Positions 22,021 through 25,575 of a stretch of DNA of 26,857 nucleotides are shown piece by piece; the stretch's first letter is position 1, and every line of letters begins with the position of its first letter. This DNA is from an uncultured Massilia sp. GTDB taxonomy: Bacteria > Pseudomonadota > Gammaproteobacteria > Burkholderiales > Burkholderiaceae. Below the pieces are notes generated by a model, which saw nothing but the letters and a program-made list of their open reading frames with translations, ran no database searches and was not told the origin of the DNA. Location of the stretch: assembly GCA_946886065.1 (NCBI GenBank), contig CAMPHU010000044.1:1-26857 (forward strand). Reading direction: 5' to 3'. The translations under genes were made by a program, and so were the position numbers.

Positions 22021-23043
22021 ATGGAATTTTTCAAGATCAAACGGGATATCCCGTTCATGCGTCATGCCCTGATCCTCAACGTGATCTCGGCGGTGACCTT
22101 CCTGGCGGCGGTGTTCTTCCTGGCGACCAAAGGCCTGCATTACTCGGTGGAGTTCACCGGCGGCACCGTGATGGAGCTGCGCTATCCGCACGCGGCGGAC
22201 CAGGAAAAGATCCGCACCACCCTGCGCGGCATCGGCTACGAAGCGCCTGAGGTGCAGAGCTTCGGCACCGCCCAGGACATCATGCTGCGCCTGCCGATCG
22301 TGCAGGGCACGCCGGCGGCCGGCACCTCGGCCAAGGTCTTCGACGCGGTTTGCGCCTCCGAGCAGGGCGCGACCAGGCAGTTCCAGACCACCAGCGCCAA
22401 GGGTGAGCAGGTCAGCCGCACCAGCTGCGTGGACGCGGCCGGCAAGGAAGTGCTCAGCCTGCAGCGCGTGGAATTCGTCGGCCCGCAGGTGGGCGACGAG
22501 CTGGCGCAGAACGGCCTGAACGCGCTGCTGATGGTGGTGTTCGGCGTGGTTGCCTACCTCGCCATCCGCTTCGAGTGGAAGTTCGCGGTCGCGGCCATCC
22601 TGGCGAACCTGCACGACGTGGTCATCATCCTTGGCTTCTTCGCCTTCTTCCAGTGGGAATTCTCGCTCACGGTGCTGGCGGCGATCCTGGCGGTGCTGGG
22701 CTACTCGGTCAACGAATCGGTCGTGATCTTCGACCGTATCCGTGAAATGTTCCGCAAGCATCGCAAGATGACGGTGACCGAGGTGATCGACCACGCGATC
22801 ACCAGCACCATCTCGCGTACCATCATCACCCACGGTTCGACCCAGATGATGGTGTTGTCGATGCTGTTCTTCGGCGGCCATGCGCTGCACTACTTCGCCA
22901 TCGCGCTGACCATCGGCATCTGCTTCGGCATTTATTCGTCGGTGTTCGTGGCCGCGGCGATCGCCATGTGGCTGGGCGTGAAGCGCGAAGACCTGATCAA
23001 GCCGGTCAAGGAAAAGGACGAGACCGACGGCGCCGTCGTGTAA
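22021..23043 (+). CDS. secF: Protein translocase subunit SecF
   Basis: The 340-residue protein has the SecF layout: first helix (about 15-35), Y-S-V-E-F-T-G-G-T-V (41-50) opening the periplasmic domain, then five helices including L-G-Y-S-V-N-E-S-V-V-I-F-D-R-I-R-E with the family's conserved Asp. It partners SecD in the inner membrane. The periplasmic region has an insert (about 95-155) relative to E. coli SecF (323 residues), with Cys111 and Cys136, which could form a disulfide. A strong intrinsic terminator follows. Confidence 0.97.
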   Translation: MEFFKIKRDIPFMRHALILNVISAVTFLAAVFFLATKGLHYSVEFTGGTVMELRYPHAADQEKIRTTLRGIGYEAPEVQSFGTAQDIMLRLPIVQGTPAAGTSAKVFDAVCASEQGATRQFQTTSAKGEQVSRTSCVDAAGKEVLSLQRVEFVGPQVGDELAQNGLNALLMVVFGVVAYLAIRFEWKFAVAAILANLHDVVIILGFFAFFQWEFSLTVLAAILAVLGYSVNESVVIFDRIREMFRKHRKMTVTEVIDHAITSTISRTIITHGSTQMMVLSMLFFGGHALHYFAIALTIGICFGIYSSVFVAAAIAMWLGVKREDLIKPVKEKDETDGAVV

Positions 23044-23135: not shown

Positions 23136-23178
23136 TGTGCGGCAACGCACAGATGCATTGTTAGCGCAACCTTATAGT
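23136..23178 (+). promoter_or_regulatory. Promoter and CRP-like site of sRNA copy 1
   Basis: TGTGC-GGCAAC-GCACA (23136-23151) is a perfect dyad, close to the CRP consensus TGTGA-N6-TCACA. Its centre (23143.5) is 41.5 bases upstream of the predicted start at 23185. The -10 box is TATAGT (23173-23178), and there is no good -35 hexamer. This is the layout of a class II activator-dependent promoter. The same layout occurs before the other two copies, with the same spacing. Confidence 0.65.
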
Positions 23179-23184
23179 GGACTC

Positions 23185-23244
23185 GTCTCTTTCAGGACAT
23201 CCCTAGTTTTGGACTTTGCCCGCTCCCTGAGCGGGCATTTTTTT
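23185..23244 (+). ncRNA. Small RNA, copy 1 of 3 (about 60 nt)
   Basis: The predicted transcript runs from G 23185 to the T-run at 23244. Its first 32 bases (from GTCTCTTTCAGG to TTTTGGACTT) are identical in three copies in this window, while the surroundings differ. There is no ATG or ribosome site. The 5' part folds only weakly, leaving a pyrimidine-rich stretch and the ATCCC segment open, as expected for a base-pairing sRNA; ATCCC could pair with purine-rich ribosome sites. It lies between secF and the convergent FemAB-like gene. A Rfam family of betaproteobacterial toxic small RNAs may be the same; I could not compare. Confidence 0.75.
23218..23244 (+). terminator. Intrinsic terminator of sRNA copy 1
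   Basis: GCCCGCTC-CCT-GAGCGGGC forms a perfect 8-bp stem with a 3-base loop, followed by A and seven T. Confidence 0.9.
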
Positions 23245-23276
23245 GCCGCCCCGGGCGCCAGCGGGCCGCCAGCCTT

Positions 23277-24236
23277 TCAGCCATGACCGCGGATCAGCCG
23301 GCGCACTTTGGCCTTGACGCCGTAACGGTCCAGCAGCTGGCCTGCCCAGCCGGAAAAACGGTCCATCAGCGCGTGGGCGCGGAGGACGGCGGCATTGCGC
23401 AACGTGGGCCGCACCAGGTACACATGGGCGCACTGGCGCTGGTGGGTGGCGAACAGGCGCTTGTGGTCGGACTGGCCTTCGGTGAAATCGAAGTAGCGCA
23501 GGCCGTCTTCGCTGAACATCTGCTCCAGCACCAGCCACTGCAGCACGGTGCCGACCGACAAGTGCATGTAGGCCGGGTCATAGCCCAGGTAGGCGTAGAT
23601 CGCCACGCCGTCCTGGACCGGGCAGTAGAGGTAGGAGACAGGCCGCTCGCCGTCGAACAGTACGTAGGCGCGCAATTGCCCGCCGGCGGCCAGCGCGCGG
23701 CTGCGTTCCATGAACTCGGGCGTATCGGGCAGGCCCGCGTCCAGTAGCTTTTCCTGGTAGGTCAGCTTCGACACTGCGCGCGCGAGTTCGAAAAAGGCCG
23801 GAATCTCTTCCGGACCGCGGTAGGAATGCCACTTCAGGGCGCCACCGCAGTGTTCGGTGTACTTGCGGATCTTGCGATTGATGGTCGAGCGCGTCTTGGA
23901 CGAGAATTTCTTCTGATAGTCATCGAAGGACGTGCCCAGATCGATGTAGCAGTGCTGGTACTGCAATGGGACGTAGCGCAGGAAGGGCCCCGAGCGGGCC
24001 AGGCGCGGCAGCGTTTTGTCGACCGGCAGGCGGCGCAGGGCGAAACCCTGGCTGCCCTGGCGCAGGTGGTCCTCGCCCGGAATCGCGATGCCGTCGGCAT
24101 TCCCTGTCTCGGCCAGCCCGATCGAGTGCAACTGCAAGCGGATGGAGGCTCGGAACAAGGTCCAGTCACTCAGCTGGAACTTGAACGCTACATCACGCAT
24201 TTGCCAGGCAAATTGCGTCCCAAGGTTTTTTTGCAT
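23277..24236 (-). CDS. FemAB/GNAT-like acyltransferase (BioF2/CelD-type domain)
   Basis: The 319-residue protein has a central F-S-S-K-T-R-S-T-I-N-R-K-I-R-K-Y segment (about residues 111-126). This basic helix is typical of the acetyltransferase domain found in CelD/BcsL and FemAB-like proteins of exopolysaccharide clusters. A GNAT-like C-terminal half follows (A-Y-V-L-F-D-G-E-R-P-V-S-Y-L-Y, and F-D-F-T-E-G-Q-S-D-H-K-R-L-F). There is no signal peptide. The substrate is unknown; cell-surface polysaccharide modification is a guess from the family. It is a lone minus-strand gene flanked by the plus-strand sRNA copies. ATG 24236 has no good ribosome site; ATG 24200 is an alternative. Confidence 0.75.
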   Translation of the reverse strand: MQKNLGTQFAWQMRDVAFKFQLSDWTLFRASIRLQLHSIGLAETGNADGIAIPGEDHLRQGSQGFALRRLPVDKTLPRLARSGPFLRYVPLQYQHCYIDLGTSFDDYQKKFSSKTRSTINRKIRKYTEHCGGALKWHSYRGPEEIPAFFELARAVSKLTYQEKLLDAGLPDTPEFMERSRALAAGGQLRAYVLFDGERPVSYLYCPVQDGVAIYAYLGYDPAYMHLSVGTVLQWLVLEQMFSEDGLRYFDFTEGQSDHKRLFATHQRQCAHVYLVRPTLRNAAVLRAHALMDRFSGWAGQLLDRYGVKAKVRRLIRGHG

Positions 24237-24478
24237 AGCACGTGCGACTCAGAAAGGAAACATGCACCAACATGGCGCAGGTCTTAGATGTTGCAGCATT
24301 GCATTGTCACATTCCGCCTGTCAATAAATTCGGCATTGTTGAGCCGACTGTGATGGCAAATTGCAACTCACGGTACATGGTATCGACGGATTGCAAGGGA
24401 GCCAGACCTGGACCAGCTGCAAGACAAGTTCGCGGTCCGCCGGAAGAGCATGGAAGAAGATGGAAAATCATCCCGCAG
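24237..24478. other. Non-coding region between the FemAB-like gene and sRNA copy 2
   Basis: No gene is supported here. On minus, TTGACA (24324-24319) is a candidate -35 for the FemAB-like gene, but no convincing -10 follows. I looked for a decayed fourth sRNA copy and found none. Confidence 0.4.
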
Positions 24479-24521
24479 TGTGAAACAACGCACGGAGCAG
24501 TCCGGGGCAGGGACCTATACT
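24479..24521 (+). promoter_or_regulatory. Promoter and CRP-like site of sRNA copy 2
   Basis: TGTGA-AACAAC-GCACG (24479-24494) has a perfect left CRP half-site and a weaker right one. Its centre, 24486.5, is 41.5 bases before the predicted start 24528. The -10 is TATACT (24516-24521), 22 bases after the GCAC core, as in the other two copies. Confidence 0.65.
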
Positions 24522-24527
24522 GAAGCT

Positions 24528-24591
24528 GTCTCTTTCAGGACATCCCTAGTTTTGGACTTCACCCGTTCCCTCATCGGAGCGGGTTTTTTTT
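24528..24591 (+). ncRNA. Small RNA, copy 2 of 3 (about 64 nt)
   Basis: It has the same 32 initial bases as copies 1 and 3, then a diverged terminator that keeps its pairing. It starts exactly 150 bases before copy 3, so the two look like a tandem duplication. It has no start codon or ribosome site. It is preceded by the same dyad and -10 layout, so it should be expressed independently. Confidence 0.75.
24561..24591 (+). terminator. Intrinsic terminator of sRNA copy 2
   Basis: ACCCGTTCC (24561-24569) pairs with GGAGCGGGT (24576-24584) with one G-U pair and a 6-base loop, and runs into eight T. Several bases differ from copies 1 and 3 but the stem survives. Confidence 0.88.
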
Positions 24592-24628
24592 CGCCTGTTT
24601 GCGCTGACAGTAGAAGAAATATGCGCAA

Positions 24629-24671
24629 TGTGAAGCAGCGCACGGAAAGAACCCGCCCAAGTCCTTAAAGT
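24629..24671 (+). promoter_or_regulatory. Promoter and CRP-like site of sRNA copy 3
   Basis: TGTGA-AGCAGC-GCACG (24629-24644) is centred at 24636.5, again 41.5 bases before the predicted start 24678. The -10 is TAAAGT (24666-24671), the weakest of the three. Confidence 0.62.
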
Positions 24672-24677
24672 AGACCT

Positions 24678-24737
24678 GTCTCTTTCAGGACATCCCTAGT
24701 TTTGGACTTTGCCCGCTCCCTGAGCGGGCATTTTTTT
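24678..24737 (+). ncRNA. Small RNA, copy 3 of 3 (about 60 nt)
   Basis: It matches copy 1 over its predicted length, including the terminator, although the two lie about 1.5 kb apart and their promoter flanks have diverged. It ends four bases before the stop of the convergent HDOD gene, so its terminator hairpin also lies at the 3' end of that transcript. Confidence 0.75.
24711..24737 (+). terminator. Intrinsic terminator of sRNA copy 3
   Basis: GCCCGCTC-CCT-GAGCGGGC, then A and seven T; identical to copy 1. Confidence 0.9.
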
Positions 24738-24741
24738 GTGC

Positions 24742-25575
24742 TTACATCAGCGCGGCGGTCAGGCTCTTGACTTCCTCGGCCGATTCCTCGAGCACCTGGG
24801 CCAGGGTGCCGGCGCCGATGGTGAAATCGATGGTGGCCGCGCTCTCCGGCGTGGTGGCGCCCGGACGTTCCAGCAGGGGAGAAGCCACCGGGGCCAGGTC
24901 GTTGGCCAGCAGCAGGGTGTCGCCCAGGGTCTCGGGCGGCAGGGCGCGCATGCCATTCCACAGCGCCTCGATGGCGCCCATCACGGCCACCGGCACGCCC
25001 AGCTTGAGCAGCACGCCGCGGCCGATGGCCACTTCGCCGTGCTCGATCCATTCGTCCGCGCCGCCATCCAGCAGGCCCGGATAGGCTTCCGCGCGCGACA
25101 GCAGGTAGAAACCGCCCACCTCGTGGACGATGCCGGCGAACATGGCCGTTTCCGGATCGACGAAGGAGACGCGGCGCGCGATCACCTGGGCCAGGGCGGC
25201 CACGTGGGCCGAGTGGGCCCACAGCTGGTCGGCCTTGGCGCGCAGGGCGGGATCCTGGATCTCGCTGGCCAGCTGGCGCACGATGACGGAGGCCGCCAGC
25301 GCCCCCAGGGTGCGGAAACCGACGCGCTGGACGGCAGCGCGCACATTGGTGACGTCGTTGCCGGAGCGGTTGTAGGCGACGGAATTGGCGATGGCCACGG
25401 TGCGCGCCGCCAGCAGCGGCTCGGCCTGGACCAGGCGCGCCGCTTCGTCGATGTGGAAGTCCGGCTCGCCCAGCGCGCGCTGCAGCGTGAGCGTCGCGTT
25501 GACGCTGGTGGGGAAGCTCAGCTCGCCGCGGCCGGCCTCGGCGGCGATGCTCTTGAGTGCGGAGAGTCTGTCCAT
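24742..25575 (-). CDS. HDOD-domain signalling protein
   Basis: The 277-residue protein is one HDOD domain (about 15-215), a catalytically inactive HD relative common in bacterial signalling. It shows LSFPTSVNATLTLQRAL, I-D-E-A-A-R-L-V-Q-A-E-P-L-L-A-A-R-T-V-A-I-A-N-S, G-F-R-T-L-G-A-L-A and A-G-I-V-H-E-V-G-G-F-Y-L-L. Such proteins act as adaptors in motility, biofilm or cyclic-di-GMP circuits; no specific partner is evident. ATG 25575 lies only six bases after a perfect TATAAT, so the message may be leaderless. It is downstream of marR and the orphan gene on the same strand but has its own -10 box. Confidence 0.9.
   Translation of the reverse strand: MDRLSALKSIAAEAGRGELSFPTSVNATLTLQRALGEPDFHIDEAARLVQAEPLLAARTVAIANSVAYNRSGNDVTNVRAAVQRVGFRTLGALAASVIVRQLASEIQDPALRAKADQLWAHSAHVAALAQVIARRVSFVDPETAMFAGIVHEVGGFYLLSRAEAYPGLLDGGADEWIEHGEVAIGRGVLLKLGVPVAVMGAIEALWNGMRALPPETLGDTLLLANDLAPVASPLLERPGATTPESAATIDFTIGAGTLAQVLEESAEEVKSLTAALM

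Follow-up and report, generated by a model that had tools for sequence, protein, structure and literature searches.

Introduction

Among described systems, the double-hairpin RNAs of Rfam family RF02278 come closest to the elements analysed here, three small RNA (sRNA) genes in a 26,857-nucleotide stretch of an uncultured Massilia sp. (contig CAMPHU010000044.1 of assembly GCA_946886065.1, positions 1 to 26,857, forward strand; hereafter the window). In Burkholderia cenocepacia the family comprises ncS03, ncS05, ncS27 and ncS62, reported transcripts of 57-92 nt (PMC5688073, PMC4603805), and in Herbaspirillum seropedicae four sRNAs, Hsnc059, Hsnc063, Hsnc086 and Hsnc107 (PMC7011215). B. cenocepacia expresses its RF02278 relatives, overexpression of ncS27 slows growth, and three of the four homologues have an upstream motif in common (PMC5688073). 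A review ascribes to ncS27 a role in balancing metabolic shutdown upon nutrient deprivation (PMC10987360). What controls the accumulation of its sRNAs is stated as unknown in PMC5688073, and a text search of PMC6337395 returned no mention of the family.

Two further betaproteobacterial systems are similar in part. Bordetella pertussis S17S, called Hfq-dependent, carries a 27-nt block reported as 100% conserved across betaproteobacteria and then a terminator (PMC11722255); the likeness of S17/S17S to the window units is a related 5' end. S17S is described as matching the RNAs of RF02278, a family with a CU-rich seed, excellently, and it is processed from a longer RNA (PMC11722255); the window units have their own predicted promoter and another seed. 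The Neisseria NmsR siblings are, like the window units, tandem homologous sRNAs; going by their description (PMC5688073) they bear CU-rich anti-ribosome-binding-site stretches, unlike the window units.

In the literature that we searched, mostly titles and the openings of abstracts with few subscription journals, we recognised no description of the seed, promoter or regulon of the present subfamily. Its regulatory context is likewise undescribed in those papers, and the link to a regulon suggested by the sequences below would be somewhat surprising. We consider it probable, with a good deal of reserve, that under stress a Crp/Fnr-type activator fires one to three copies of an Hfq-type sRNA with a narrow spectrum, and that this RNA acts by base pairing through its seed.

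Three sRNA genes distantly related to RF02278

A preliminary description, made from the window's letters alone, had proposed three copies of a 32-base core, each with its own -10 box and intrinsic terminator and without a start codon. A 33-mer around the core (GUCUCUUUCAGGACAUCCCUAG) matches the window three times with 0-1 mismatch and 100 dinucleotide shuffles not at all, which bears out the copies where they had been placed. The -10 hexamers lie 12 to 7 nt ahead of a common G, and a hairpin followed by T7-8 ends all three units, as had been said. The start-codon claim holds for ATG and GTG, which are missing from every unit, but not for TTG, which is present in each; a short peptide gene was rejected because the units lack ATG and GTG. 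Identity had also been said to fade before the start. Between copies, ungapped identity is indeed low for -120..-52 (25-39%; 18-39% when 60 downstream bases are counted too), so these are three separate units and no duplicated block, but conservation extends to the -10 and to a palindrome at -49..-34.

An Rfam scan, suggested earlier as a check, found nothing in the window above the cut-off of any family. RF02278 gave sub-threshold matches to unit 3 (47.0 bits), unit 1 (43.8) and unit 2 (40.1), with a gathering cut-off of 50 and E values of 7e-8 to 4e-6. Relatives score lower or similarly (L017 41-45, L066 33 and L222 31 bits), and L220 has no RF02278 match at E 0.01. The CCUCC anti-Shine-Dalgarno loop of RF02278 (example of a canonical core, GUCUCCUCCACCCUCCUCC) is replaced in the window units by AUCCCUAG. 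With all three scores under the cut-off and CCUCC missing, the suggested membership of a toxic-sRNA family therefore comes down to distant kinship: the window units are, to judge from their sequences, distant kin or paralogues of the double-hairpin sRNAs. Both groups have a 5' GUCUC, a length of about 60 nt, a terminator with a U-tract and several copies per genome, and both occur in Burkholderiales. The window units differ in their loop and score, in a weak hairpin 1 without covariation, in a Crp/Fnr-type box that 30 canonical RF02278 genes do not have, and in lying at one locus, whereas the Burkholderia double-hairpin RNAs are not tandem according to the part of PMC5688073 that describes them. 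The window's subfamily is not alone in having tandem copies, since the canonical RF02278 genes of G233 and G263 (L450, L451) form near-identical pairs about 215-230 bases apart.

A covariance model, R1, built from 54 copies with two window units among them, scored units 1, 2 and 3 at 85.8, 80.5 and 85.8 bits. Run over 250 genomes of the order, it matched 20; five matches of 80-91 bits lie in G001 and G013, and the rest reach at most 45.2. Outside this group the strongest matches, in G233, G263 and G042, fall on RF02278 genes whose sequence is GUCUCCUCCAACACCUCCUAAGGUUUGGAUU, slightly varied; placed beside GUCUCUUUCAGGACAUCCCUAGUUUUGGACUU and compared by eye, this looks like descent with an altered CCUCC loop. 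Of 250 Burkholderiales genomes, 158 have a match to RF02278 itself (93 above the cut-off), with nine matches in G001 and eight in G013. One genus (L220, L221, L223, L229) has GUCUCCUCUGGAGGAGAUCCCUAGUUUUGGACUU, where a CU-rich 5' arm can pair with GAGGAG and AUCCCUAGUUUUGGACUU is kept; the minimum-energy and centroid folds of L220 disagree on this pairing. G434 (L224) has a diverged single copy (CTAGCATTGG) with a good box.

Whole units fold with z of -3.6 to -4.0. In 54 distinct copies the terminator helix has 93.2% of its cells paired and two-sided change in 5 of 9 pairs. Hairpin 1 (-5.2 kcal/mol) has 97.2% of cells paired in the same number of copies, and no two-sided change; its four varying pairs depart by unpaired cells alone. 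Against 500 shuffles, the cells changed two-sidedly and the covariation score exceed all controls. Since shuffles of the 32-base core fold as well as the core itself (z 0.03), hairpin 1 shows no covariation and natural variants favour other folds (L220, L222, L066), what this subfamily keeps is its sequence, and hairpin 1 is doubtful; its 97% pairing follows from a sequence that hardly varies. Two canonical RF02278 members fold well (L452, z -5.0; L037, z -6.6).

A predicted class II promoter with a Crp/Fnr-type box

Upstream sequences were aligned for 177 distinct copies, gathered with at most four mismatches in a 24-base core, many through an exact-core scan in which 80 of 99 stretches were listed. 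The alignment has no -35 box. Its peaks of information content are the -10 and the palindrome TGTGA-N6-GCACA, then GAG. The best match to this palindrome with GAG is centred at -41.5 in 154 copies and at -42.5 in 23, counted from the presumed first base, and scores 8-13 of 13, as against 5-10 for shuffled upstream sequence. In the -10, T-12 is found in 174 copies, A-11 in 177 and T-7 in 175, and each of the bases +1..+8 is identical in at least 176. Invariance of the core is partly by construction, since the copies were collected by it; +1..+8, the -10 and the box lie outside the collecting patterns.

Activators of the Crp/Fnr family take the class II position when their site is centred at -41.5. 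All 177 copies have, along with a -10, a palindrome centred close to -41.5 where a -35 box would otherwise lie. The preliminary description had missed this conserved Crp/Fnr-type palindrome and the regulon at which it hints. At that place, none of 30 canonical RF02278 loci, including one canonical gene each from G001 and G013, has such a box. In Escherichia coli, CyaR is an sRNA gene activated by a Crp-family protein; the likeness is in the type of control, and its regulator and regulon differ from those proposed here.

Several canonical RF02278 genes of other genera (L450:110-150, L451:115-155, L452, L453, L031, L042, L060) have a different upstream dyad, TTGCTGC-N3-GCAG-like, just 5' of the -10 or overlapping it. 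This suggests another regulator, perhaps a repressor.

The same box in a stress gene cluster

The closest comparison genome to the window is G001, and G345 belongs to its genus. A 21-column matrix made from the sRNA boxes alone was run over 2.2 of the 4.25 Mb of G345 and gave 15 matches scoring above 12. Nine of these lie within 1.890-1.920 Mb (binomial p 8e-14, for an interval picked after seeing the matches), where there is a cluster of envelope and general-stress genes plus a Crp/Fnr gene, and two precede CsbD genes (1545762, 1547287). A fair -10 stands exactly 18 nt 3' of the box in eight of the 15 and at 19 nt in two; in five it is weaker, elsewhere or missing. By position, boxes lie 5' of two glycine-zipper genes, a BON gene (weaker, 11.5) and a DUF4398/OmpA pair, and also 5' of several genes without a family. 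The cluster further contains a ferritin-like gene, a DUF883 gene, a second BON gene and a gene with a glutaredoxin domain that also matches peroxiredoxin weakly, and its Crp/Fnr protein has a sub-threshold cNMP domain. Without mismatches, a looser motif occurs six times in the 2.2 Mb: five of these sites are at the cluster or a CsbD gene, and the sixth is close to a different Crp/Fnr paralogue. With two mismatches it finds 1106 and is uninformative.

Across 30 genomes, the loci of orthologues or best homologues of the cluster regulator (107 kb) hold 78 matches scoring at least 9, in 29 of the 30 loci. Control loci have three in 30 secF loci and two in 30 loci from a Crp-HTH search (L258, among the latter, is the G042 homologue). 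A fair -10 at exactly 18 nt accompanies 62 of the 78; of 9000 hexamers drawn at random from the loci, 199 qualify. The regulator has an orthologue of at least 71% in 17 of 18 sRNA-bearing genomes (one being the query's own), of 63-85% in five genomes that belong to the same genera and lack the sRNA, and a homologue of at most 53% or none in 19 genomes of other genera. The regulon thus extends at least as far as the sRNA, and it seems that the sRNA was drawn into it.

In all 22 loci L370-L391 the box beside the regulator is TATGTACGGTGACGCACGGAA or differs by one base (for example L370:1294-1314). The match to the regulator orthologue in G333 (L388) is reported with one in-frame stop codon.

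Hfq, CsrA and possible targets

Hfq is encoded in 15 of 15 relatives' genomes. The units end in T7-8, and a terminator with a U-tract in a genome that encodes Hfq is what an Hfq-type sRNA should have. An antisense RNA to one gene was rejected, as the reverse-complement 20-mer (at most three mismatches), searched in 20 sRNA-bearing genomes, finds the sRNA genes and a single three-mismatch site, in G276.

Targets were sought in 2.2 Mb of a single genome, G345, among 1742 predicted genes whose starts came from a simple script and not from annotation. This core gave 14 genes with strong complementarity in the start region. The canonical core gave 42, eight shuffles gave 13-38 and the reverse complement gave 13. 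Judged by these counts, the RNA does not seem to be a broad anti-Shine-Dalgarno one, and no class of targets is prominent. Highest among the candidates in G345 is an acetyl-CoA acetyltransferase gene, with 13 bp over the Shine-Dalgarno sequence (L276:14330-14370, equal to C1 334330-334370), possibly a lineage-specific target. Following this one candidate across the sRNA-bearing genomes, together with the scan of G345, revealed no conserved mRNA target. A narrow-spectrum Hfq-type regulator within a stress regulon is therefore preferred, as neither anti-Shine-Dalgarno breadth nor a target class was seen.

Distribution and conservation of the locus

Of 100 genomes sampled from five genera of the Oxalobacteraceae, 95 (27/27, 5/5, 26/26, 15/17 and 22/25) contain the core (24 bases, at most three mismatches). 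None of 194 genomes of 39 other genera of the family does, so that for the whole family the tally is 95 genomes out of 294 and five genera out of 44; the core is also missing from 16 genomes of other families. In the window's own genus all 25 genomes have it, 13 with three matches, 11 with two and one with one. Outside that genus there is one match per genome, except in G464 (two), where the second copy (L067:204-262) is more diverged and lies 1.3 kb 5' of the main one. An exact 20-mer recurs in 99 DNA stretches in named species genomes; among the 80 of these that were listed, the labels are Massilia, Pseudoduganella, Duganella, Telluria, Rugamonas, one Janthinobacterium and one Herbaspirillum sp., besides bins labelled to family or phylum only.

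Neighbours were identified by tblastn with the window proteins in 159 copy-bearing loci, a set from two collections that counts some genomes twice. Both secF and the HDOD-domain gene were seen in 51 loci, secF only in 43 and HDOD only in 54. In all 148 of these loci the copies share the strand of secF, stand 3' of it and point towards HDOD; distances between copies vary among loci. The remaining 11 (L025, L029, L068, L073, L097, L104, L107, L115, L149, L150, L189; five with 8 kb of sequence) show neither gene, possibly because of inserted genes or a different place. A mobile repeat of the repetitive extragenic palindromic or miniature inverted-repeat transposable element type was rejected, given the constant order and orientation in 148 of 159 loci, with neither neighbour in 11. 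The core as one strain's mobile repeat, which the preliminary description had named as the finding that would count against it, is at odds with its presence in 95 of 100 genomes of five genera. The selected family of independently promoted small RNA genes proposed there is upheld by conservation, constant locus and distribution: as read from their sequences, the three units are real, selected, clade-specific sRNA genes, with predicted transcription.

The region downstream of secF was also taken from 30 genomes of other genera of the family, each reaching at most 1.5 kb past the secF match and some less (Rfam scan in 18 of 30, pattern scan in 30 of 30). The pattern scan found no core, canonical motif or good box there, and two weak box-like matches (L207, L215). 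Since these regions are without core, motif and good box, the locus looks like a gain of the clade that was later multiplied.

Proposed mechanism and alternatives

We propose that free-standing sRNA genes of 60-64 nt, distant RF02278 paralogues, originated between secF and HDOD in the shared ancestry of Massilia, Duganella, Pseudoduganella, Janthinobacterium and their relatives. A Crp/Fnr activator, most likely the stress cluster's own or a close paralogue, would bind the palindrome at -41.5 and recruit RNA polymerase to a class II promoter without a -35 box. Upon an inducing stress, all copies would fire alongside the stress genes (two CsbD genes, BON, glycine-zipper genes and the DUF4398/OmpA pair). 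The RNA, with its terminator and U-tract, would be loaded on Hfq and could repress a narrow set of mRNAs by base pairing via the invariant AUCCCUAG/UUUGGACUU stretch, with sRNA copy number setting the dose. A wider claim, which we find equally easy to believe and to doubt, is that a Crp/Fnr regulator undescribed in the papers searched, with its own site (about TGTnCG-N4-CGnACA, at class II spacing), runs an envelope and general-stress regulon of Oxalobacteraceae, and that one lineage captured into this regulon a toxic-type sRNA whose broad anti-Shine-Dalgarno loop became a specific CUAG-containing seed and which was amplified to one to three copies.

If true, the family would stand as a clear example of sRNAs that switched both seed and control. 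Because canonical members with the old seed and without a box persist alongside (G001, G013), the states before and after rewiring could be compared within one family. It would also tie a Crp/Fnr regulator to a coherent set of stress genes through one site, and would offer a specific handle (regulator, promoter and condition) on what induces an RF02278-type RNA.

Several observations weigh against the proposal. The 29 of 30 regulator loci do not count as independent trials, since the loci are orthologues of one another. G390, G413, G503, G521 and G531 have the regulator and no detected core, and G434 has the sRNA and its box and no close regulator orthologue (best 38%). Base pairing at start regions is without statistical support, because 14 genes are not above the controls, and the acetyl-CoA acetyltransferase site is kept in G345, G017 and partly G008 and not in the other sRNA-bearing genomes where the start was placed (of 30 target loci, L418, L428 and L429 were unplaced and are counted neither way). 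The covariation control is mixed, since 83 of 500 shuffles reached the count of two-sidedly changed pairs, and hairpin 1 may have a role.

Another Crp/Fnr protein, for example a cAMP-type Crp, could be the activator, with carbon or oxygen status as the signal. G001, G008 and G345 each have 10-11 HTH_Crp_2 matches, G434 keeps its box although the cluster regulator has no close orthologue there, a perfect match to the motif is found some 3 kb away from a different Crp/Fnr paralogue of G345 (1026614), and TGTGA-N6-GCACA resembles an E. coli Crp site. We regard this as unlikely, though worth keeping in view: boxes concentrate at the cluster regulator (29/30 loci) and not at other Crp/Fnr loci (2/30), and the regulon sites are, by eye, closer to TGTnCG-N4-CGnACA than to TGTGA-N6-TCACA. 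The window units could also be ordinary RF02278 toxic sRNAs that slow growth by blocking many ribosome-binding sites. Their E values, 5' GUCUC, length and terminator fit, and the canonical genes of G233, G263 and G042 (GUCUCCUCCAACACCUC...) are found by both the RF02278 and R1 models. Yet the canonical anti-Shine-Dalgarno RNA was rejected on the sub-cut-off scores and the fewer complementary starts; with CCUCC absent, a weak hairpin 1 and a different promoter besides, we consider this reading distinctly improbable.

Two explanations do without base pairing to mRNA. A protein-titrating sponge, for CsrA/RsmA for instance, would suit the several copies and the two GGA motifs of the core (AGGAC, UGGAC). 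CsrA was found in none of 15 relatives' genomes searched, 12 of them sRNA-bearing, and a CsrA sponge was rejected on this count; another protein could be titrated, and the sponge as a whole seems very improbable to us. The units might instead be promoter-terminator cassettes that have no trans-acting role and insulate secF from HDOD or absorb read-through, in keeping with their strong terminators and constant order and orientation wherever the neighbours are seen. However, the terminator varies across five genera while the 32-base RNA body hardly does, and an insulator needs neither an activator box nor an invariant body, which leaves this explanation barely credible.

Features of the window

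Table 1. Positions of the sRNA units, their promoter elements and the neighbouring genes in the window (PWM, position weight matrix score; box centres relative to the presumed first base).
Feature	Position	Strand	Details or evidence
sRNA unit 1 (60 nt)	23185..23244	+	core 23185-23216, terminator hairpin 23217-23237, T7 23238-23244
sRNA unit 2 (64 nt)	24528..24591	+	core 24528-24559, terminator hairpin 24561-24584, T-tract ending 24591
sRNA unit 3 (60 nt)	24678..24737	+	core 24678-24709, terminator hairpin 24710-24730, T7 24731-24737
Crp/Fnr-type box, unit 1 (TGTG-N8-CACA)	23136..23151	+	centre -41.5, PWM 24.7
-10 hexamer TATAGT, unit 1	23173..23178	+	18 nt 3' of 21-mer box match
Crp/Fnr-type box, unit 2	24479..24494	+	centre -41.5, PWM 29.7
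-10 hexamer TATACT, unit 2	24516..24521	+	12 to 7 nt 5' of the common G
Crp/Fnr-type box, unit 3	24629..24644	+	centre -41.5, PWM 28.7
-10 hexamer TAAAGT, unit 3	24666..24671	+	12 to 7 nt 5' of the common G
secF, left neighbour, also in relatives	22021..23043	+	Pfam SecD_SecF_C; synteny
GNAT acetyltransferase (Acetyltransf_6), between units 1 and 2	23277..24236	-	Pfam
HDOD-domain gene, right neighbour, also in relatives, convergent with unit 3	24742..25575	-	Pfam HDOD; synteny

The GNAT protein of the window had no tblastn match in any of the 159 copy-bearing loci. PWM matches of at least 9 in the window, whose own copies are among the 177 training rows, are boxes 1-3 and one of 10.8, which is the box 1 palindrome read on the opposite strand.

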